In this document: positions 5,372 to 35,891 of the stretch, piece by piece
Layout: every line of letters begins with the position of its first letter
Position numbering within the stretch: the stretch's first letter is position 1
Assembly: GCA_026707185.1 (NCBI GenBank)
Contig: JAPOXI010000049.1
Coordinates: forward strand, 1 to 37,165
Source: Chloroflexota bacterium
GTDB taxonomy: Bacteria; Chloroflexota; UBA11872
Reading direction: 5' to 3'
Length of the DNA stretch: 37,165 nt
The notes under the pieces: model-generated
What the model was told of the DNA's origin: nothing
What the model saw: the letters and a program-made list of their open reading frames with translations, nothing else
Databases searched by the model: none
Program-made: the position numbers and the translations under genes

Positions 5372-6448
5372 TTAGGTCGCTGCAACCGCGGCCCGACCGT
5401 AATCGTTACTTGGATCCCGATAAACGGAGTGGTAGTGGGCTCCCCCGCCGCCCAGTCGCCCCTCGGTCGAAAACTCAATGATCAGCGAGGGTCCCTGCAT
5501 CCGGAAATAGATCGGCCCGCCGTCCGCCTCGCCATGCCAGGCAAAGTGCAGGTCGTCCAGTTCGTCCCGAATCTCATCCATCCGGGCCTGCGCGCTCGCC
5601 GCATCCAGCACACCCACCCACAGCCCAATGGCGTCCAGCAGCACCTGCTGCTGGTCCGGGCTCCAGTCCCCGGCGGCGGCGCCTTGAATCTCGGGAACTA
5701 TGCCGTCGCGTCCCGCCCCCGTCTGCACGCCGTTCGGCCGGCTCGCTAGCGTGGCCGTCGCACGGGCGTCCGCATCCAGCGCGTCGATCACCGCGCGTCC
5801 GGCGCTCGCGAACGAATCAAGCGGCGCCACCGTCGCATTGCCATGCACAAACGTCGCCGGCTCTATCCCCAGGAAGGTCGGCGACAGGTAACTCCGACCG
5901 TCCGCCACCGTCACGTTCACCGCCAGGTGATGTCCCCCGAACTGCCAGCCCCACGGCATCAGATCCGACGGCTCGCCAAAAAACGCCAGCCAGTAGTTCT
6001 CGGCGCTGAACCGCGAGCGGTCCCCGCCGCGCGACTCCGCCAGGGCGTCCTCCGCCCGCACGATCCCCGTCACCACCTCGTATCCCGCCGGGCTCATGGC
6101 CACCGCCAGGAAGTGGTGCAACGCGTCCGTCTGCTCCAGGTCCAGGTCGCCAATCCGCACTCCGTTCCGCTCAAATCGCACCGAACCCGGCGGCAGATTG
6201 GACCAGTTCGACCGACGCGAATCTCCCAACTCCAGCACCGCCGTCACCCGCTGTTCGCTGCTCAGCGACTCGAGAAACGCCGTGGCTGCGCTGACTGCCG
6301 GCGAACCGGGCGCAACGGTCGCCACCGCCTCCGGCGTCGAGTCAGGCACGGTACCTAGGGAGTGGCCAGGTGCCGTCTCGCTACCGCACCCGACCAGCAC
6401 CACGGCCGCCACCACCACGGCCACCGCAACCAACCTTCTGTGACCCAT
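5372..6448 (-). CDS. DUF3500-family lipoprotein
   Basis: 358-aa predicted lipoprotein. A 20-residue signal peptide ends in the lipobox LVG-C21, followed by a Ser/Thr/Pro linker. The body matches DUF3500: an early FLESLSSEQR segment, central WLAFFGEPS and WGWQFGGHHLAVN motifs, and the C-terminal signature of HFAWHG, YFRMQGPSLIIEF and HYHSVYRDPSNDYG. The function of DUF3500 is unknown. The paired His and Asp/Tyr residues suggest a metal-binding or hydrolytic fold, but that is inference. Anchored outside the cytoplasmic membrane. The next minus-strand gene upstream (NFACT) ends 3 bp away, so this could be the last gene of the rpmH run. Confidence 0.85.
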   Translation of the reverse strand: MGHRRLVAVAVVVAAVVLVGCGSETAPGHSLGTVPDSTPEAVATVAPGSPAVSAATAFLESLSSEQRVTAVLELGDSRRSNWSNLPPGSVRFERNGVRIGDLDLEQTDALHHFLAVAMSPAGYEVVTGIVRAEDALAESRGGDRSRFSAENYWLAFFGEPSDLMPWGWQFGGHHLAVNVTVADGRSYLSPTFLGIEPATFVHGNATVAPLDSFASAGRAVIDALDADARATATLASRPNGVQTGAGRDGIVPEIQGAAAGDWSPDQQQVLLDAIGLWVGVLDAASAQARMDEIRDELDDLHFAWHGEADGGPIYFRMQGPSLIIEFSTEGRLGGGGAHYHSVYRDPSNDYGRAAVAAT

Positions 6449-9012: not shown

Positions 9013-9897
9013 TCAGGCCCTGGGGCTGATGACGACGCGGCGCTCGTCACCCTCGCCGATGCTGTAGGTGCGCACATCCTCATCGTCCGCCAGCGCCACG
9101 TGCACCAACCGCCGCTCATTGGCCGGCATGGCTTCCAGCGTGATCGGCTCCTGCGTGGCCCGGACTTCGTCCGCCAGGGTTTCCGCCAGTTCCGCCAGTT
9201 GATCCGCCCGCCGCTGCCGGTACCCGTTCACGTCCACGATCACCCGGCACGGCCGGCCCATCCGCCGCCCCAGCATCAGGTTCACCAGGTACCCGAACGC
9301 CCGCAGCGTCTCGCCCTGCCGCCCGATCAGCCGGCCGAAGTCGTCGTCGCCCACGATGTTGTAAGCCAGCGGCTCCTCGGACACCAGGTCGAAATCCGCC
9401 ACAAAGCCCATCCGGTCCAGCAGGTTCTCCAGCAATTCCTCGGCCTCGTTCTCCAGGTCTTCACCGGACTCCATAAGTTCGCCGCGTGGACGCCGTCCGG
9501 TGGATGTGGCCGATTCGCTTACCTTCGCTACGGGTGGCTCGGCGTCGGCCGTCACGGGCGCCTCGTCGTCCGGCTTCTCCTCTTTGACGTCCTCTGCTGC
9601 AGGCTCCTCGGACGCGGCTTCAGCCACCACGTCGTCGGGCACCGCGTCATTGGGCACCGTGTCATCGGGCACCGTGTCATCGGCCTCGGCTGCTTCTACC
9701 GAGTACGGCTGGCTGCGCAGCCGCACGCGCACACGCGCGTCCTCCCGGCCCATGCCCAGCACGCCGCGCGATCCCGCACTGATGACGTCCACGTCAATCT
9801 CGTCCAGGGTCACGTTCAGCTGCAGCAGCGCGCGCTTGACGGCGTCTTCCACCGAGCTGCCGGTCACGATCACTCCGTCGCTGGATTCCTTAGCCAC
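9013..9897 (-). CDS. jag: Jag/KhpB RNA-binding protein (Jag_N-KH-R3H)
   Basis: 294-aa cytoplasmic RNA-binding protein. Domain order: Jag_N (8-60, with AGSRGVLGMGREDARVRVRL), an acidic low-complexity linker (about 61-145) containing a DDTVP-type repeat, a KH domain (about 150-223, with FGRLIGRQGETLRAFGYLV) and an R3H domain (about 224-290, with NERRLVHVALADD and YSIGEGDERRVVISP). KhpB proteins bind many small RNAs and mRNAs and influence cell division and envelope growth in Firmicutes. The gene follows yidC with an 8-nt overlap, the classic yidC-jag order. The linker is longer than in Bacillus Jag. Confidence 0.95.
   Translation of the reverse strand: MAKESSDGVIVTGSSVEDAVKRALLQLNVTLDEIDVDVISAGSRGVLGMGREDARVRVRLRSQPYSVEAAEADDTVPDDTVPNDAVPDDVVAEAASEEPAAEDVKEEKPDDEAPVTADAEPPVAKVSESATSTGRRPRGELMESGEDLENEAEELLENLLDRMGFVADFDLVSEEPLAYNIVGDDDFGRLIGRQGETLRAFGYLVNLMLGRRMGRPCRVIVDVNGYRQRRADQLAELAETLADEVRATQEPITLEAMPANERRLVHVALADDEDVRTYSIGEGDERRVVISPRA
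9631..9690. repeat. 15-bp imperfect tandem repeat inside jag
   Basis: Four consecutive 15-bp units (start points 9631, 9646, 9661, 9676), each beginning GTC and most containing GGGCACCG. The last unit has diverged. On the minus strand they encode the repeated pentapeptide DDTVP/NDAVP/DDVV in the acidic Jag linker. The unit length preserves the frame, so copy-number change would lengthen or shorten the linker harmlessly. Confidence 0.8.
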
Positions 9898-11506
9898 CGC
9901 GTCTCCTCCGTCGCCGCCGCCGGCGAGGGCGTCTCGCCGTCTCGGGCTTTGACTCGGTCTCCGTCTCCTGAGCCTCGGCCTTCGCCGCTTCCACCTTCGC
10001 GTGATGTTCCCCCATCACGTCGCGCGCGATGGGCCAGTGGGCGGGAATCAGCTTCCCCGTGCCCGTCGTGAAGTATTGCTGAACGATCGCAATAATGCTG
10101 GAAATCACCCAGTACACCACCAGGCCCGCCTGGAATGTCCAGGCAAACACCACGACGATAATCGGCATGAACTGCATCACCCGGTTCATTGTCGCCGCCT
10201 GCCCCGTCGCCGTGCTCGATGCCATCATGCGCGCTTGGATGAGCTGGAACCCCCCGGCCAGCAACGCCAGCACCGAGATATAGAACCCGCCCGACGCAAA
10301 CAGGTCAAAGTTCGCCGGCAGCCGCGTGAAGCCCGCCACCTGCGCCGCCTCCTGCCCCTGGCCGCTATTCCACCAGTCCTGTAGGTAGGCCTTCGTCGAA
10401 TCCGTGGCCGGACCCCAGTAGGCATACACGTCCCGGGCCAGGGCATAGTTTCCGTCCGCCAGGACGTCCGCCAGCGCCGGATAGGCGCGGTCGGTGCCGC
10501 GCGCCTCGATGTTCAGCATCCGGATATCGTCGGTACGCATGGGCGGAGACACGCCCAGCGACCCCGGCTCCGCCCGCAGCGCGTTGAAATAGTCGTCCAC
10601 GCTGTTGTGCTCGCGAATCGGCACTTGAATCGGATCCCCGTTCAGCACCAGGCGCTCCAGCAGCCCGGGTGCGCTCAGGTCGTCCTTCAGTCCGTGCAGC
10701 ACGATCGGACCCACCCCCGCGCCCACGTCCGCCCAGTTGACGATCCGGCCGCGCAGAATCCCTTCCACCTGGTCCATCGTTAGCCGTGTGGCGGGACGGT
10801 CGCGTTCCACCAGGAAAGCCGCTGCCTGCGCCAGCCGGGTTTGCTCCGTGCCCGCCGGCATCTGGCCCAGGTCCGCCTCCGTATCCAGGAAAATCGCCGC
10901 CGCTGTCCCGTCGTTCAGCAAGTCGATCGCCGCCCCCGCGTCCACCACGTCGGTTCGGAATTGGTAGTTGGCCGCAAACTGCGTAAAGGACACGGCCAGC
11001 GACGACTCCAAAGGCGTCGGCAATTCCGTCGTCGCGATCACCACGTCCACCGGCTCGGTCGGCGCCGCGTCGCCAATGATCTGGATCGTCGAGTCCTCCC
11101 GCGCCAGGTTGAACCACAGGAACTGCTCGTTCAGCAATCCGCGGCTGCTCAGCGTCAGGATTCCCCCGTACAGTGCCAGTAGCACCGGGAGCTGGATGAA
11201 GATCGGCAGGCACCCCGCCATCGGGTTGACGCCGCGCTCCTTGTAGAGCTTCATCGTCGCTTCCGAGATCGCCTGCCGATCCCCCTTTAAGCGGTTGCGG
11301 ATGGTCTCCAACTCCGGCTGGATCAACTGCATCTTGCGTTGCGAGGTGATCTGCTTCAGCGTCAGCGGAATCATCAGCAACCGGATCAGCACCGTGAACA
11401 GCACAATCGCAATCGCGTAGCTGCCCACCGCGTCGTGAATCAGCGTCAGCGCGTCGCTCAGCGGGTCAACGGCCCACGTCTGCCAGGTGTTGGGGATCGC
11501 TTCCAT
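9890..11506 (-). CDS. yidC: YidC/Oxa1 membrane insertase with inserted PstS-like domain
   Basis: 538-aa membrane protein insertase, about twice the size of an ordinary short YidC. The N-terminal half is canonical: first helix about 25-50 with groove arginine R42 (TVLIRLLMIPLT), the cytoplasmic hairpin (QRKMQLIQPELETIR, LYKERGVNPMAGCLP) and a second helix 97-118, then LLNEQFLWFNLA. Instead of running directly into the next helix, about 250 residues (150-396) intervene that resemble a PstS-type solute-binding domain. YidC then resumes with SVLALLAGGFQLIQARMM (411-428) and two more helices (about 445-479). The tail ends in a run of about a dozen arginines, a likely ribosome-contact tail. No N-terminal proteobacterial P1 domain. 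It follows yidD by 15 bp and overlaps jag by 8 nt. The frame is unbroken. Confidence 0.93.
   Translation of the reverse strand: MEAIPNTWQTWAVDPLSDALTLIHDAVGSYAIAIVLFTVLIRLLMIPLTLKQITSQRKMQLIQPELETIRNRLKGDRQAISEATMKLYKERGVNPMAGCLPIFIQLPVLLALYGGILTLSSRGLLNEQFLWFNLAREDSTIQIIGDAAPTEPVDVVIATTELPTPLESSLAVSFTQFAANYQFRTDVVDAGAAIDLLNDGTAAAIFLDTEADLGQMPAGTEQTRLAQAAAFLVERDRPATRLTMDQVEGILRGRIVNWADVGAGVGPIVLHGLKDDLSAPGLLERLVLNGDPIQVPIREHNSVDDYFNALRAEPGSLGVSPPMRTDDIRMLNIEARGTDRAYPALADVLADGNYALARDVYAYWGPATDSTKAYLQDWWNSGQGQEAAQVAGFTRLPANFDLFASGGFYISVLALLAGGFQLIQARMMASSTATGQAATMNRVMQFMPIIVVVFAWTFQAGLVVYWVISSIIAIVQQYFTTGTGKLIPAHWPIARDVMGEHHAKVEAAKAEAQETETESKPETARRPRRRRRRRRRGG
10319..11059 (-). other. PstS-like solute-binding domain embedded in YidC loop
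   Basis: Codes for residues about 150-396 of YidC. It matches the PstS/PBP-like-2 pattern in order: VDVVIATTELPTP then a helix and a GAAIDLLNDGTAAAIF stretch (lobe 1); LTMDQVEGILRGRIVNWADV (242-261), equivalent to the family's 'L-x-x-E-Q-V-x-x-I-F-x-G-x-I-x-N-W'; GPIVLHG; EPGSLGV (313-319), matching 'DPGAIGYV'; GNYALARDVYAYW (352-364), matching 'G-x-Y-P-L-x-R-x-L-Y'; and a final helix plus AGFTRLP. The canonical phosphate loops (SGSG and R-x-x-x-SGT) are not preserved: after GPIVLHG comes LKDDLSAPG. The ligand may therefore not be phosphate. The insert falls in the loop that faces outside the cytoplasm in YidC, the correct side for a solute-binding fold. Confidence 0.82.
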
Positions 11507-11521: not shown

Positions 11522-11743
11522 CTAGGGGACGGGGTCGTAGCCTCCGGCGTGCCACGGATGACAGCGAGCTACCCGCCGCACGGCCATGCCGGTACCGCGC
11601 AGCAACCCGTAGCGCTCGATCGCCTCGTGGGCGTACTGCGAACAGGCCGGCTCGTAGCGGCACGTCGACCCGAACGCCGGCGATATCCATCGCTGGTAGC
11701 CCCGGATCAGCCACAGCGCCACGGCCGTCATCCGGTCAGCCAA
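11522..11743 (-). CDS. yidD: Membrane protein insertion efficiency factor YidD
   Basis: 73-aa YidD, an amphipathic membrane-associated protein that assists YidC-dependent insertion. The family core is complete: LIRGYQRWISP, then CRYEPACSQYAHEAIERYG with its cysteines, and HPWHAGGYDPVP at the end. ATG 11743 gives the standard length and overlaps the rnpA stop region by 16 nt. The position between rnpA and yidC is the conserved one across bacteria. Confidence 0.95.
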   Translation of the reverse strand: MADRMTAVALWLIRGYQRWISPAFGSTCRYEPACSQYAHEAIERYGLLRGTGMAVRRVARCHPWHAGGYDPVP

Positions 11744-12069
11744 GCCCGCGACTGCCGCAATCCGCGGCTCACCGCCGCCGCCAATTCCCCTGGCGCCGCG
11801 TCTACCGCCCGCGCACGCGGCAGCGCCACGATGTCCAGCGCGCCGGGCAGGTCGGCAAGTTGAGGTCGCAGCGCCTCCCGCACCCGCCGGCGCAGCCGAT
11901 TACGCCGCACCGCCGAACCGAAGCGCCTCGACACCGGCACCACCACCCGCGACGCCTCGGCTTCGCCGGGCGTGGCGAATAGCACCAGCCAGGGCGTCAC
12001 CGCCTTGGTGCCGCGCGATCGTACCCGTGCGATGTCGGCAGCCCGGCGCAGGCGATTGCGGCGGTTCAT
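11728..12069 (-). CDS. rnpA: Ribonuclease P protein component
   Basis: 113-aa protein subunit of RNase P, which with the M1-type RNA removes 5' leaders from pre-tRNAs. The family RNR motif is seen as FGSAVRRNRLRRRVREALR (50-68), and the N-terminal half gives the usual RLRRAADIARVRSRG region that binds the leader. It lies 32 bp downstream of rpmH and overlaps yidD. The RNase P RNA gene is not in the window. Confidence 0.95.
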   Translation of the reverse strand: MNRRNRLRRAADIARVRSRGTKAVTPWLVLFATPGEAEASRVVVPVSRRFGSAVRRNRLRRRVREALRPQLADLPGALDIVALPRARAVDAAPGELAAAVSRGLRQSRAWLTG

Positions 12070-20180: not shown

Positions 20181-20966
20181 GTGTGCCGCAGGCTCCAGCC
20201 CATCGTCCACCTCATCGAGGTACCCACCCAGGTCCTCTACCGGCTCGGCGCGGGCGACCGCATCGTCGGCATAAGTTCCTATGCCGTCCGCCCCCCGAGG
20301 CGAGGCGCGATAAGCCGGTCGTGTCGACGTTCATCGGCGGCAGCGTCAAGAGAGTGGTCGCCGTCAAGCCTGATCTGGTTGTCGGCTTTTTCGACATACA
20401 GGCCGACCTCGCCCGCAAGCTCATCGCCGCCAATCTCCCCGTCCTCAGGTTCAACCAGCGCTCGGTCCAGGAAATCCTGGATGTCATCGCTGATCTGGGC
20501 GCTCTCGTGAATCAGCGCGATCGAGCCCGTGACCTATCCGGTCGCGACATCGACCGCGTTGAACGCACGCAGCGACGGGCAGCTTGCCGGCCTCACCGTT
20601 CGTGAACGAACTTCGAAGGGTGGGACGATCCGCTGATCTGCGGCATCCGCTGGGTCAGCGAGTTGATCGAGATCGCGCGCGGCGTTGACACATTTGCCGC
20701 TCGCGCCCCGGGCGCTGCGGGGCGAAAGCTCCCCGTGGCCGTAGTCGTCCAACGGGCCCCCGACGTGATGCTGGCTTCCTGTGCGGCAAGCCCTTCGACT
20801 ACCAGGCGGTCTTGGCCCGGCCAGGCATGGATTTGGTTCCACCGTTCGCGCTGGCCGTGTTCACGAGATTCCCGCCGGGATCATCCTGCAGCCGGGTCCG
20901 GCCTGCCGGACCGACGGACTTGACCGCTGGGAAGAGCTGCTCTATCCCCCGGAGCCAGCGTCCTGA
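20181..20966 (+). pseudogene. Degraded cobalamin-binding ABC substrate-binding protein (BtuF-like)
   Basis: Fragments of a helical-backbone metal-receptor protein lie in order but in shifting frames. About 20181-20300: IVHLIEVPTQVLYRLGAGDR and IVGISSY. About 20300-20605, second frame: RDKPVVSTFIGGSVKRVVAV, PDLVVGFFDIQADLA, then a stop at 20603-20605. About 20608-20780: NFEGWDDPLICGIRWVSELI, EIARGVDTF. About 20780-20850, another frame: CGKPFDYQAVLARPGMDLVP. About 20850-20966, another frame: GRVHEIPAGIILQPGPA and a normal-looking end. At least three frameshifts plus a stop, and no signal peptide or start. The EGWDDP...WVSELIEIA and CGKPFDY...ARPG blocks are typical of cobalamin-binding substrate proteins. 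No permease or ATPase gene is adjacent. Confidence 0.8.
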
Positions 20967-24435: not shown

Positions 24436-24470
24436 CTCGGTGCGGAGTGGCGAGTCCGCTCCGCGCCGAG
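24436..24470 (+). terminator. 15-bp stem hairpin after the Crp/Fnr gene
   Basis: CTCGGTGCGGAGTGG (24436-24450), loop CGAGT, then CCGCTCCGCGCCGAG (24456-24470): 15 paired positions of which two are G-U, starting 13 nt after the stop. No T-run follows, so either this terminator works without a U-tract, as suggested for high-GC bacteria, or the hairpin acts in mRNA stability. Confidence 0.6.
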
Positions 24471-24592
24471 CCTCCCTTCGGTCCGCCCTCACGAGCGGAA
24501 ACCTACCCCGCCTCGATCGCTATCCCTGGCACGTACATCCACTCGCGTGCGCTAGGCTCCCCATCCGCCCCACCCAACTGCTTGGCGGCTCT

Positions 24593-25813
24593 GTGCCTAT
24601 CCCAGCATTCACCTCCTTCCTGACCGCCCTCCGCTGCGCTGAAACCGGCGCAGCGCACGACCCCGGCGTTCTCCAATCCGTCAGCCACGGCGCCGGCGCC
24701 ACCCTTCTTCCCGAATACGATCTTGACGCCGTTCGCGCCGCCGTCACCTCCGAGGACATCCGCCAGCGCCCCCACGACCTCTGGCGCTTCCGCGAACTTC
24801 TCCCGCTCGACAACCCCCTCCAAACCCCCGACCTCGGTGCAGGCGCCACGCCCCTCCTCCGCCTTCGTCGCCTCTGCGAGCACTTCGGCCTCACCAACCT
24901 CTGGCTCAAGGACGAAGGCGCCAACCCCACTGGAACCTTCAAGGCCCGTGGCGCGGCCGTCGGCGTCGCTCGCGCTTACGAACTTGGCGTCCGCGATATC
25001 GCCATCCCCACGGCTGGCAACGCCGGTAGCGCCTGGGCCGCCTACTGCGCTGCCTGGGGCATCACCCTTCGCGTCGTCATGCCCGTCAACACGCCCGATC
25101 CCATCAAAGCCGAGTGCATTGCCTACGGCGCCGACGTCACCGAAGTCCGCGGCGTCATCAGCGACGCCGGCCGCATCGCCTCTGAACGTGCCTCAGATGC
25201 CGGCTGGTTCGACGCCTCCACCATGAAGGAGCCCTACCGCGTCGAGGGCAAGAAAACGATGGGTCTCGAAATCGCCGAAGCTTTCGACTGGGATCCGCCC
25301 GACGTCGTGCTCTACCCCACCGGCGGCGGGGTTGGCCTTATCGGCGTCTGGAAGGCCATGCGCGAACTCGCTGACATGGGGTGGCTCAAGGGAACCCCAC
25401 CCCGCCTTATCGCCGTCCAGGCCTCCGGGTGCGCCCCCATCGTCGAAGCTTGGGAAGCCGGTCTTGACGACGCCGAGCGCCCGCCCGATCCCCACACCGC
25501 CGCCAACGGTCTGCTCGTGCCGCTGCCGTTCGCCCACCGCCTCATCCTCCGCATCCTCCGCGAAACCGGCGGCACCGCCATCGCCGTCGACGACGCCCAA
25601 CTCGTCCACGGCATGCGCCAGCTGGCCGACCTCGAGGGCGTCCTGGCCGCTCCAGAGGGCGCCGCCCTCGTCCCCGCGCTCGCCGCGCTGCTTCAGCGCG
25701 GCGAAATCGGCCGCGACGAGCGCATCGTTCTCCTCAACACCGGCAACGCTCTCAAGTACACCCACCTCGTGAACCGGCCCTCCCGGCCAGCCATTGATCC
25801 CTTGCCCGCATGA
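24593..25813 (+). CDS. Threonine-synthase-like PLP-dependent enzyme
   Basis: 406-aa fold-type II PLP enzyme. The Schiff-base lysine is K117 in NPTGTFKARGAAVGVA. The loop TAGNAGSAWAAY replaces the usual S/T-x-GN-x-G, and TGGGVGLIG is the phosphate-binding glycine loop; LNTGNALKY ends the core. The N-terminus (CAETG...SHGAGATLLPEYDL) aligns with the zinc-ribbon head of long threonine synthases but has lost the paired cysteines. It may be a threonine synthase paralog, a threonine/hydroxyamino-acid dehydratase or a lyase. A canonical thrC lies at 33.5 kb, so another reaction is likely. GTG 24593 is the best start. The stop overlaps the next gene as ATGA. Confidence 0.85.
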   Translation: MPIPAFTSFLTALRCAETGAAHDPGVLQSVSHGAGATLLPEYDLDAVRAAVTSEDIRQRPHDLWRFRELLPLDNPLQTPDLGAGATPLLRLRRLCEHFGLTNLWLKDEGANPTGTFKARGAAVGVARAYELGVRDIAIPTAGNAGSAWAAYCAAWGITLRVVMPVNTPDPIKAECIAYGADVTEVRGVISDAGRIASERASDAGWFDASTMKEPYRVEGKKTMGLEIAEAFDWDPPDVVLYPTGGGVGLIGVWKAMRELADMGWLKGTPPRLIAVQASGCAPIVEAWEAGLDDAERPPDPHTAANGLLVPLPFAHRLILRILRETGGTAIAVDDAQLVHGMRQLADLEGVLAAPEGAALVPALAALLQRGEIGRDERIVLLNTGNALKYTHLVNRPSRPAIDPLPA

Positions 25814-33525: not shown

Positions 33526-34593
33526 CTAGACGGTGCTCCACCCGAGAGCCCCGGCAACCGCGCTGATGCTGGCCTCGACTTCGGCCGGCTTGGGTGCATA
33601 CCGCACCGCCGCGCCCGGGTCCTTCAGTCCGGTCCCGGTAAGCACGCACACAACCCGATCGCCCATGACCTCGCCGCCGCGAGCGCGATGCAGGAGCCCG
33701 GCCACCGACGCGGCCGAAGCCAGTTCGACAAAGATGCCTTCTTCGGCTGCCAGCAGTTGATAGGCCTCGACGATGAGCTCGTCGCTGACCGCCTCGATGG
33801 TCCCGTCCGACTCGTCGCGCGCCTGCACCGCGCGCTCCCAGTTGGCTGGATTGCCAATCCGAATGGCCGAGGCCACCGTGTCTGGGCTCTCCACGGGCTC
33901 ACCGCCCACAATTGGCGCCGCACCCGCGGCCTGGTAGCCGCGCATTACAGGTAGCTGCCTGGCTCGGCCCGCCCTTTGATATGCGCAGAACCCCATCCAG
34001 TACGCCGTGATATTGCCCGCGTTTCCGACCGGGATGTACAGCTCATCCGGTGCGTCACCGAGCGTATCCACAACTTCGAATGCGGCCGTCTGCTGCCCTT
34101 CCAGCCGGTAGGGGTTGACCGAGTTGACGAGTGCAACACCGGGACGCGCTGCCAGTTCCCGAACCACGGCGAGGCCGTCGTCGAACGACCCCTGAATCGG
34201 AATCACCCTCGCGCCGTAGATCAGCGCCTGCGCCACCTTGCCCAGCGCAACGCCGCGCGCCGGAATGATCACCCCGGTGGGCGTTCCGGACCGCGCGCCG
34301 AAGGCTGCTGCGGATGCCGCCGTGTTCCCGGTCGAAGCGCAGATAAACGAGTGGGAGCCTTCCTCGATGGCCTTGGCAGCCGCCACCGCCAGCCCCCGGT
34401 CCTTGAACGAGCCGGTGGGGTTACAGCCTTCGAGTTTCAGCCAGACCTCCGCCACGCCCAGCCGCCGCTCCAGCGACGCGGCCCGAACCATAGGCGTGTC
34501 GCCTTCGCCAATGGTCAGATTCGGCGTGGCCTCGCCTACGGGAAGAAACTCTCGATAGCGCTCGATCACCCCCGGACGCGGGGAGCCGTTCAT
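33526..34593 (-). CDS. thrC: Threonine synthase
   Basis: 355-aa PLP enzyme converting O-phosphohomoserine to threonine. The PLP lysine is K64 in NPTGSFKDRGLAVA, followed by CASTGNTAASAAAF, VGNAGNITAYWMGF and the ending VLTGTGLKDPG. The N-terminal LTIGEGDTPMVRA is typical of the short bacterial class. ATG 34593 overlaps the hom stop by 4 nt (ATGA); the long open frame beyond it is antisense-like filler inside hom. Homoserine kinase (thrB), often in this operon, is absent here. Confidence 0.95.
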   Translation of the reverse strand: MNGSPRPGVIERYREFLPVGEATPNLTIGEGDTPMVRAASLERRLGVAEVWLKLEGCNPTGSFKDRGLAVAAAKAIEEGSHSFICASTGNTAASAAAFGARSGTPTGVIIPARGVALGKVAQALIYGARVIPIQGSFDDGLAVVRELAARPGVALVNSVNPYRLEGQQTAAFEVVDTLGDAPDELYIPVGNAGNITAYWMGFCAYQRAGRARQLPVMRGYQAAGAAPIVGGEPVESPDTVASAIRIGNPANWERAVQARDESDGTIEAVSDELIVEAYQLLAAEEGIFVELASAASVAGLLHRARGGEVMGDRVVCVLTGTGLKDPGAAVRYAPKPAEVEASISAVAGALGWSTV

Positions 34594-35891
34594 TCCGCCA
34601 GGTCCTCGACTCGAATCACGCTGGCGACCGAGGCCACCACCTCCAGATCTGCGATGGCGGACAGCGCGCCCTGCACCGCCGCTTCCTGCGCCTCGTGCGT
34701 CAGGAACACCAGCTCCGCGCGACCCGCGTTTTCGTCCACTTCCTTCTGGATGACCGAAGCGATGCTGATGGCATGCTCGCCGCAGACCGCGCCAATCCGC
34801 GCCAGAACCCCCGGCTGGTCCTTGACCCAGAGCCGGAAGTAGTAGCGCGAGCGAACCGCGGACATGGGCAGCACGCACAGGTCGCCGTCCAGGGACATGG
34901 GAATGCGGTCGTGCACCGCCCGCCTGATGTTGTGTCCCAGGTCGATCAGGTCGGCCACGATGGCGCTGGAGGTCGGCTCGGGGCCCGCCCCACGGCCAAT
35001 GAAGAGGGCGCGGCCCAGCAAGTCGCCGTCCAGCAACACGGCGTTGAACACCCCATCCACCTGCGCCAGCAGCACGTCCCGCTGGATCAACGCCGGGTGC
35101 ACCCGCGCCTCGAAGCCGTTCGAGGCCCGCTTGGCGATAGCCAGCAGCTTGATGCCGTAGCCCAGCTCGGCCGCGTACCGAAAGTCCGCCGCGCTGATGC
35201 GCGTGATGCCCTCGCGATAGACATCCTCAGGGCTGACGGCGCAGTTGAACGCCAGCGAGGCCAGGATCACCAGCTTGTAAGCCGCGTCGATCCCTTCGAT
35301 GTCGTTAGTCGGATCCGGCTCGGCATACCCCAGCCGCTGCGCGTCCGCCAGAGCGGCGTCGAAGTCCACGCCGCCGGAGGCCATCTCGGTCAGGATGTAG
35401 TTGGTCGTCCCGTTGATGATGGCGTGCACCTCGCGGATCTGGTTTGCCGCCAGGTCCTGGCGGAACGGCCCGATCACCGGGATGCCGCCGCCCACGCTCG
35501 CCTCGAAATAAAGGTCGCGGCCTTGCGCCGTGGCCAGTTCCAATAACTCGATCCCGTGCGTGGCCATTACTTCCTTGTTGGCCGTGACGACATGCTTGCC
35601 GGACTGAAGCGCGCGCCGGATGTACGTGTTGGCGGGTTCGACGCCGCCCATCAGTTCCACCACGACGTCGATGGACCCGTCGTCGAGCACTTCGTCCGCG
35701 TTGACCGTCAACTTGGAGGCGTCAAGCGGAACATCGCGTTTGCGGTTGGGATCGCGGATCAACGCGCGCCGGACCTGGAACGAACGACCAATCTGGCGCT
35801 CCAGGTACCCGGCCCGTTCGGTGACCGTCCGGACAACGGCCGAACCGACCGTGCCCAGTCCCAGGAACCCTAGACCAATCTCAGCCGACAT
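34590..35891 (-). CDS. hom: Homoserine dehydrogenase
   Basis: 433-aa NAD(P)-dependent enzyme reducing aspartate semialdehyde to homoserine. Nucleotide loop GFLGLGTVGSAV (8-19), catalytic K106 in VVTANKEVM, a substrate-domain NGTTNYILTEM and DPTNDIEGIDAAYKL, and a C-terminal ACT domain (about 355-430, YYFRLWVKDQPGVLARIGAV) that probably mediates threonine feedback. ATG 35891 is preceded by GAGGG; an upstream GTG at 35909 would add six residues. It is the first gene of a hom-thrC operon with a 4-nt overlap. Upstream 35892-36023 is non-coding and should hold its promoter. Confidence 0.95.
   Translation of the reverse strand: MSAEIGLGFLGLGTVGSAVVRTVTERAGYLERQIGRSFQVRRALIRDPNRKRDVPLDASKLTVNADEVLDDGSIDVVVELMGGVEPANTYIRRALQSGKHVVTANKEVMATHGIELLELATAQGRDLYFEASVGGGIPVIGPFRQDLAANQIREVHAIINGTTNYILTEMASGGVDFDAALADAQRLGYAEPDPTNDIEGIDAAYKLVILASLAFNCAVSPEDVYREGITRISAADFRYAAELGYGIKLLAIAKRASNGFEARVHPALIQRDVLLAQVDGVFNAVLLDGDLLGRALFIGRGAGPEPTSSAIVADLIDLGHNIRRAVHDRIPMSLDGDLCVLPMSAVRSRYYFRLWVKDQPGVLARIGAVCGEHAISIASVIQKEVDENAGRAELVFLTHEAQEAAVQGALSAIADLEVVASVASVIRVEDLAE

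Follow-up and report, generated by a model that had tools for sequence, protein, structure and literature searches.

A predicted PstS-type binding-protein domain inserted in the YidC insertase of a Chloroflexota lineage

What might a solute-binding domain contribute when it sits inside a membrane protein insertase? The question is raised by a 37,165-nucleotide stretch of Chloroflexota DNA (the window), in which yidC (9890–11506, minus strand) is a single open frame of 538 codons with an ATG start. To our knowledge, YidC is universal and usually essential. A first-pass annotation of the window proposed that a PstS-like domain interrupts this protein at residues 150–396, which correspond to 10319–11059 as claimed, and all seven motifs that it named are present in the frame: FLWFNLA at residues 129–135, LTMDQVEGILRGRIVNW at 242–258, LKDDLSAPG at 273–281, EPGSLGV at 313–319, GNYALARDVYAYW at 352–364, AGFTRLP at 391–397, and SVLALLAGGF at 411–420. 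The N-terminal YidC half, ending in FLWFNLA (residues 8–135; 11102–11485), is followed on the minus strand by the inserted domain (residues 146–398, boundaries chosen from alignments; 10313–11071), the C-terminal YidC half, which begins at FYIS (residues 408–490; 10037–10285), and an arginine-rich C-terminal tail (residues 525–538; 9893–9934).

A Pfam scan shows that the locus is an ordinary rnpA–yidD–yidC–jag/khpB cluster, an order that is usual in bacteria. On the minus strand, rnpA (11728–12069) and yidD (11522–11743) overlap by 16 bases at 11728–11743, and yidC and jag/khpB (9013–9897; Jag_N, KH, and R3H domains; listed GTG start) overlap by 8 bases at 9890–9897, given the listed start codons; these overlaps suggest translational coupling of the cluster. 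The neighbors conserved at fused yidC genes are rnpA, yidD, jag, a pfkB-like gene that scores below the Pfam cut-off, and NFACT. Just downstream of the NFACT gene, the window encodes a DUF3500 protein (5372–6448, minus strand; E 1.5e-75). Farther along the window are two PALP (pyridoxal-phosphate enzyme) genes, 24440–25813 on the plus strand and 33526–34878 on the minus strand, one adjoining a 2-hydroxyacid dehydrogenase gene and the other a homoserine dehydrogenase gene. A 140-amino-acid frame at 20183–20605 (plus strand) gives a partial match to Peripla_BP_2 (PF01497; E 1.7e-11, profile positions 28–117 of 235) and looks like a decayed binding-protein gene, because the rest of the domain is not found in the neighboring frames tested.

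The interrupted protein retains the features of its family. The Pfam family 60KD_IMP (PF02096) matches it in two stretches (E 2.5e-48; 164.6 bits compared with a cut-off of 35), in agreement with the earlier claim that both YidC halves are intact, and both halves score above the cut-off in all 19 genomes found to encode such a fusion. The window protein also exceeds the cut-off of NCBIfam yidC_oxa1_cterm, and its N-terminal half aligns with Bacillus halodurans YidC2 (3wo7) and Escherichia coli YidC. Conservation was assessed in an alignment of 33 fused proteins, consisting of the window protein, 23 of 27 protein hits, and 9 of 17 genome loci (P0017, P0018, P0019, and P0021 were left out as short or partial). 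R42, in the groove-arginine region IRLLMIPLT, is invariant in all 33 and aligns to the arginine of IVRGIMYPLT in E. coli YidC, which we take to be the groove residue. A conserved positive residue in the groove is described for all YidC/Oxa1/Alb3 homologues in an excerpt of the literature (PMC8920935). Ahead of the inserted domain, W131 and D138 are likewise invariant in all 33 proteins. A covariation model of E. coli YidC, as given in part of its source (PMC4124156), pairs Trp454 of loop 3-4 with Asp462 and also with Ser511 of loop 5-6; judged through the 3wo7 alignment, W131 and D138 probably match Trp454 and Asp462. By domain, groove arginine, and locus, the window protein is a member of the YidC/Oxa1/Alb3 insertases, with predicted insertase activity.

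Two alignments locate the insert: FLWFNLAREDST aligns with FLWFDLGQPDYI of B. halodurans YidC2, and from residue 401 onward the match to E. coli YidC resumes at chain position 457 of 4utq. They place the insert in h4h5, which lies between TM2 and TM3 of short YidC proteins and corresponds to loop 3-4 of E. coli YidC. The loop is termed hypervariable across the superfamily in excerpts of a comparative study (PMC8675477). FLWFNLA and YIS are separated by 273 residues in the fused protein, and the insert has the same boundaries in all 33 aligned proteins. The insertion had been described as lying exactly between FLWFNLA and SVLALLAGGF; it does lie between them, but with the chosen boundaries a linker of ∼10 residues precedes the domain and one of 12 follows it. 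The site without an insert is seen directly in an insert-free member of the same order (G021), which reads FLWFNLADIDRTFSIP...FYISILALLAG at this place. A Kyte–Doolittle scan with a 19-residue mean, in which some YidC helices were not resolved, finds nothing in the insert as hydrophobic as the main YidC helices: the insert peaks at 1.19, whereas the four main YidC peaks reach 1.75–2.54 and one shoulder 1.38. The insert-bearing loop is predicted to face outward, as the first-pass annotation held, a prediction based on homology rather than on a topology predictor. Four insert-free sister proteins (L028, L029, L030, and L042) carry a two-cysteine stretch of ∼30–40 residues just before FLWFNLA that the fused proteins lack; it may form a loop closed by a disulfide on the surface where the insert lies.

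Identification of the insert relies on profile comparisons. Pfam PBP_like_2 (PF12849) matches residues 147–375, between the two 60KD_IMP stretches (E 4.5e-11; 43.5 bits compared with a gathering score of 27), and exceeds the Pfam cut-off in the inserts of all 19 fused genomes; both Pfam families match each of the 33 aligned proteins at E 0.1 or better. A profile built from nine inserts (253 positions) matches the solved PstS structures 4q8r (6.2e-10) and 4gd5 (7.1e-10), both over positions 10–242, and 1twy (5.2e-9) over positions 9–230. Single-sequence matches are far weaker (window protein to 4gd5, 2.9e-4; L017 insert to 1twy, 1.2e-5), and the match to TIGR02136 (ptsS_2) is weak, at 21.5 bits for the whole protein and 24 bits for the insert alone, below the cut-off of 206.6. 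The alignment of the insert to a PstS protein of the same genome extends to the GxxxLP end. Together, these matches bear out the proposal of a PstS-like domain within YidC, and we infer a PstS-type binding-protein fold for the insert.

An assembly or binning chimera could produce such a gene, and 16 of the 17 genome loci are on contigs of multi-contig assemblies (MAGs). However, a search with residues 140–405 passed 27 proteins among the 7998 candidates scored, which were those sharing most words with the query, and all 27 carry both Pfam domains; these protein clusters come from several sources. The fusion is also encoded on 17 Chloroflexota genome contigs with different assembler name styles, including OY282448.1, a single contig of 3.0 Mb. 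The insert is 46–98% identical to that of the window among eight compared, and the same boundaries and the purifying selection described below are also at odds with an artifact. The fusion is thus conserved in relatives, and a chimera has a negligible probability.

The prevalence of the fusion varies sharply with taxonomic rank. In the order of the OY282448.1 genome, 24 species were searched with PF02096, of which 19 carry fused and five carry plain, insert-free YidC; one of the five plain members contains Ns (G022) and one is cut by a contig end. The nearest relatives of the window protein (L001 and L002), 97% identical to it, belong to this order. At class level, the 41 genomes searched comprise 19 fused, 21 plain, and one without any match. 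Across the phylum, 400 genomes were sampled and at most three candidates scored in each; the fused profile is matched at 1e-30 by 126 genomes, but across the insert by none other than the 19 fused ones. Lateral spread of the fused gene is therefore not seen outside the order in this sample, and the locus is syntenic. Eleven other long Chloroflexota YidC proteins (L082–L092), picked from the phylum sample by open frames of 432–544 amino acids, were inspected by eye and none has a PstS-type insert; three owe their length to a different insert, and the rest to N- or C-terminal stretches. The different insert (L084, L088, and L089 of genomes G247, G184, and G170; frames of 481–502 amino acids) is ∼170 residues long, beta-rich by eye, and found in three of the 400 phylum genomes at 1e-90.

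The fused gene encodes the only YidC found in its bearers. No second YidC is detected at 1e-3 in the 19 fused genomes, where both PF02096 matches are halves of one frame, so the idea that another copy fills the normal role finds no candidate. Because most of these genomes are drafts and 16 of 17 loci come from multi-contig assemblies, some genomes may hold a second YidC that their assemblies lack. Each of the 24 genomes from the order gives SecD/SecF matches, and SecDF is thus present with or without the insert, which provides no genetic link to a partner. The insert was also considered as a replacement for SecDF or PstS; this was rejected, as SecD/SecF matches are universal in the order and a stand-alone PstS-like gene is present in 18 of the 19 fused genomes (draft G018 shows none).

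How did the domain come to be in YidC? A tree of the YidC core with the insert removed was built from 46 rows: 15 fused proteins chosen for diversity, four of the five plain order-mates (G022, which holds Ns, was left out), 16 from the class, and 11 others. The fused rows fall on one side of a branch (97/94), and the plain order-mates adjoin the fused clade (100/99); the tree program cautions that some branches are long and may be joined falsely, including the branch between the class rows and the fused group. No loss of the insert is seen within the fused clade, as the four plain order-mates in the tree fall outside it. The genes rnpA, yidD, and jag lie beside all 17 fused genes, and plain L028, L029, and L030 share the rnpA–yidD–yidC–jag arrangement, while L042 has rnpA–yidD–yidC up to the contig end, before jag. 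The single fused clade beside plain order-mates and the common locus point to one acquisition in place; most simply, a single event would have brought the domain into a yidC already present.

The donor was not found by searches with the insert alone. In a set of 5.8 billion proteins, a profile search for stand-alone relatives yielded five hits among the 8000 scored candidates that share most words with it, and a single-sequence search yielded four from 1965 candidates; all nine are pieces of fused genes or YidC, full fusions being outside the length limit. A PstS of the same genome was rejected as a close donor, since the insert profile at E 0.01 finds only the fusion in the 19 fused genomes. 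In the five insert-free genomes, the profile gives one weak match in each of two (5e-4 and 1e-3). Profile–profile comparison of the insert with 23 PstS proteins of the order gives a probability of 72% over 214 columns.

In PstS, phosphate is held by the loops GSST, SGSGGG, ASR, and SGT. At the corresponding places in the window protein, the motifs are lost from the first ligand loop (residues 158–166, ATTELPTPL, where PstS has the GSTSVGP type; 11009–11035), the second (residues 186–194, PstS GSSAG/SGSGGG; 10925–10951), and the third (residues 270–282, LHGLKDDLSAPGL, PstS REDGSGTR or GPGxDSGT; 10661–10699), all on the minus strand. The strings GS(S)T, SG[ST]GxG, [AS]SR, SGT[RYF], and EDDNV occur in 0, 0, 1, 0, and 0 of the 33 inserts, and the single ASR/SSR string is off the aligned place, where residues 206–208 read F/V, L/V, and D/N/E/Q. 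Other positions of the site are fixed in part, at 158 (A), 160 (T), and 276 (D), and variable in part, at 161 and 191. In contrast, the same five motifs occur in 24, 23, 24, 24, and 24 of 24 stand-alone PstS-like proteins of the order, drawn from 25 loci (L096 gave none), 19 from fused genomes (two from G008) and five from plain order-mates. The phosphate-contact loops are altered, as had been noticed, and most simply their loss would predate the split of the sampled fused lineages.

These counts bear on two phosphate-based proposals. The suggestion of the first-pass annotation that phosphate is coupled to membrane protein insertion is not supported, as the loop motifs are lost and the stand-alone proteins keep them; the loss of the motifs together with the retention of a stand-alone gene in 18 of 19 fused genomes makes phosphate gating unlikely. 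A phosphate role for the insert is improbable. The same applies to the idea that the domain is a phosphate sensor or an accessory PstS working with PstCAB, with YidC merely as its membrane anchor: the PstS-type profile match would fit, but the eroded loops and the intact stand-alone proteins speak against it, and no pstCAB or other pst gene lies among the six neighbors and 28 further window frames scanned, leaving this proposal with very little credence.

The insert is nonetheless maintained. By the Nei–Gojobori method, its dN/dS is 0.067 in the clade of the window (clade A, 12 sequences, 66 pairs) and 0.126 in clade B (four sequences, six pairs), compared with 0.034 and 0.040 for the YidC core and 0.125 (57 of 66 pairs usable) and 0.433 for the C-terminal tail. 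The dN of the insert is three to four times that of the core; the comparison of all 17 loci is partly saturated at synonymous sites and was used for dN only. In the most distant four of these loci, identity to the window is 46–47% for the insert and 78–79% for the core. The insert is under purifying selection, and these values indicate a constraint weaker than that on the core. Arginine is prominent among the fixed residues: 9 of 16 are invariant, whereas over all 253 positions 61 are (hypergeometric P 0.004, from a test made once the pattern had been noticed); 0 of 12 glutamates and 4 of 24 aspartates are invariant. R235-D236-R237 and T240-R241 are also fixed in all 33 proteins; the aligned PstS 4q8r has KNNPVKD there.

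The explanation favored here, with a probability of roughly 0.5, is that a degenerate binding-protein fold, acquired once, sits outward at the YidC groove exit and works there in docking or as a chaperone. The fused protein is the orthologous and sole YidC found in a lineage that once gained a PstS-type domain in h4h5. The domain would fold outside the cytoplasm, tethered beside the groove exit, would no longer bind phosphate, and may act as a holding platform for translocated tails, for partners (SecDF or SecYEG, for example), or for both. Indirect evidence points this way: a single clade with no loss seen, sequence constraint, the fixed arginines, and the fixed R235-D236-R237-x-x-T240-R241. 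A docking domain without a ligand, one of the options raised at first pass, thus fits better than phosphate coupling.

The main rival of the docking or chaperone explanation is a tolerated passenger: the domain would have inserted by chance in a tolerant loop and been kept as an independently folding unit that is hard to lose cleanly, with no role of its own. The elevated dN of the insert counts against a docking role and is what a passenger would show. The hypervariability of h4h5, unrelated elaborations in the same YidC loop of other Chloroflexota, and the fact that most of the E. coli P1 domain can be deleted without loss of function, according to excerpts of the sources cited below, are also in its favor. 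However, no loss is seen inside the fused clade, and frame length is nearly fixed, at 540–551 amino acids in 19 of 19 fused genomes. The dN/dS of 0.07–0.13 and the invariant polar positions where 4q8r differs argue against a passenger as well, although both might in part reflect nothing more than selection against misfolding. A passenger is a tentative explanation, roughly half as probable as docking.

Ligand control is a further proposal. In one version, the insertase is gated by a solute other than phosphate in a remodeled cleft, with closure altering the YidC groove or the assembly of the complex. The profile match spans most of the binding-protein domain and the alignment with the same-genome PstS reaches the GxxxLP end; several invariant arginines could form a new anion site, and D276, which occupies the place of the aspartate in the DSGT loop, is the same in all 33 proteins. 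The ligand-loop places are, however, partly hydrophobic (273 is L/I/M and 277 is L/I/F) and partly different among fused proteins (161 is D/E/G/F/Q and 191 is E/A/G/Q/D/V), and no transporter gene adjoining fused yidC was found among the conserved neighbors; gating by a solute seems unlikely. The broader version, in which opening and closing of the domain like a clamshell, driven by a new ligand or by client translocated tails, controls the groove exit, is similarly doubtful; if true, it would give these bacteria a way to feed a signal into the one YidC found in them.

Comparison with known systems places the fusion in context. Binding-protein folds are covalently joined to membrane machines in OpuA, GlnPQ, and ionotropic glutamate receptors, as they are here, but in those cases the domains bind ligand and drive transport or gating, and the partner is an ABC transporter or a channel rather than an insertase. 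PstS and PBP_like_2 proteins (4q8r, 4gd5, and 1twy) match most of the insert, but PstS is a separate exported protein, whereas the insert is nested in a membrane protein and its phosphate loops are eroded. The short YidC proteins of monoderms (B. halodurans YidC2, 3wo7; Bacillus subtilis SpoIIIJ) have the same core, FLWF-L---D loop motif, and groove arginine region, but their TM2–TM3 loop is short, unlike the 273-residue gap of the fused protein. The YidC proteins of G170, G184, and G247 carry an extra domain in the same h4h5 loop, but theirs, with ∼170 residues, precedes the FLW motif and has no Pfam match over the cut-off.

Outward domains of YidC are described mainly for the E. coli protein, whose P1 is likewise a large soluble extracytoplasmic domain. 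P1 belongs to a different lineage and lies between TM1 and TM2, before EH1, whereas the Chloroflexota insert lies in h4h5, after FLWFNLA and before FYIS. The folds presumably differ, P1 resembling a sugar-binding beta supersandwich. A title cited by PMC7618853 refers to a substrate-binding cleft in P1; excerpts report that SecDF/SecYEG are contacted by P1, as inserting chains are believed to be (PMC7618853, PMC5766551), and that P1 is largely dispensable, with most of it deletable (PMC5766551, PMC13174344). The insert is best read as analogous to, but independent of, P1, and on the h4h5 surface it may do roughly what the unrelated P1 does in diderm YidC.

The first-pass annotation knew of no described example, and none was found in titles and abstract openings within a set of 5.39 million open papers; excerpts of a family-wide study (PMC2706819) do not contain the terms Chloroflex, periplasmic, or additional domain. 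The three named hits among the 27 are all called YidC/Oxa1 family membrane protein insertase, which indicates that the proteins are annotated but, as far as seen, have not been discussed. The PstS-type domain in h4h5 of this Chloroflexota lineage appears to be a previously undescribed addition to a core machine of the cell. The role of large outward YidC domains is unsettled, as P1, in the excerpts cited above, binds Sec partners yet is mostly deletable. With another, well-understood type of fold placed in a second outward loop of the only YidC found and kept under selection, this lineage would provide an independent second case of what such domains contribute to YidC, with insert-free sister species as natural controls. 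If the fused protein is active, the YidC core tolerates a 250-residue domain in h4h5, which may be useful for engineering.
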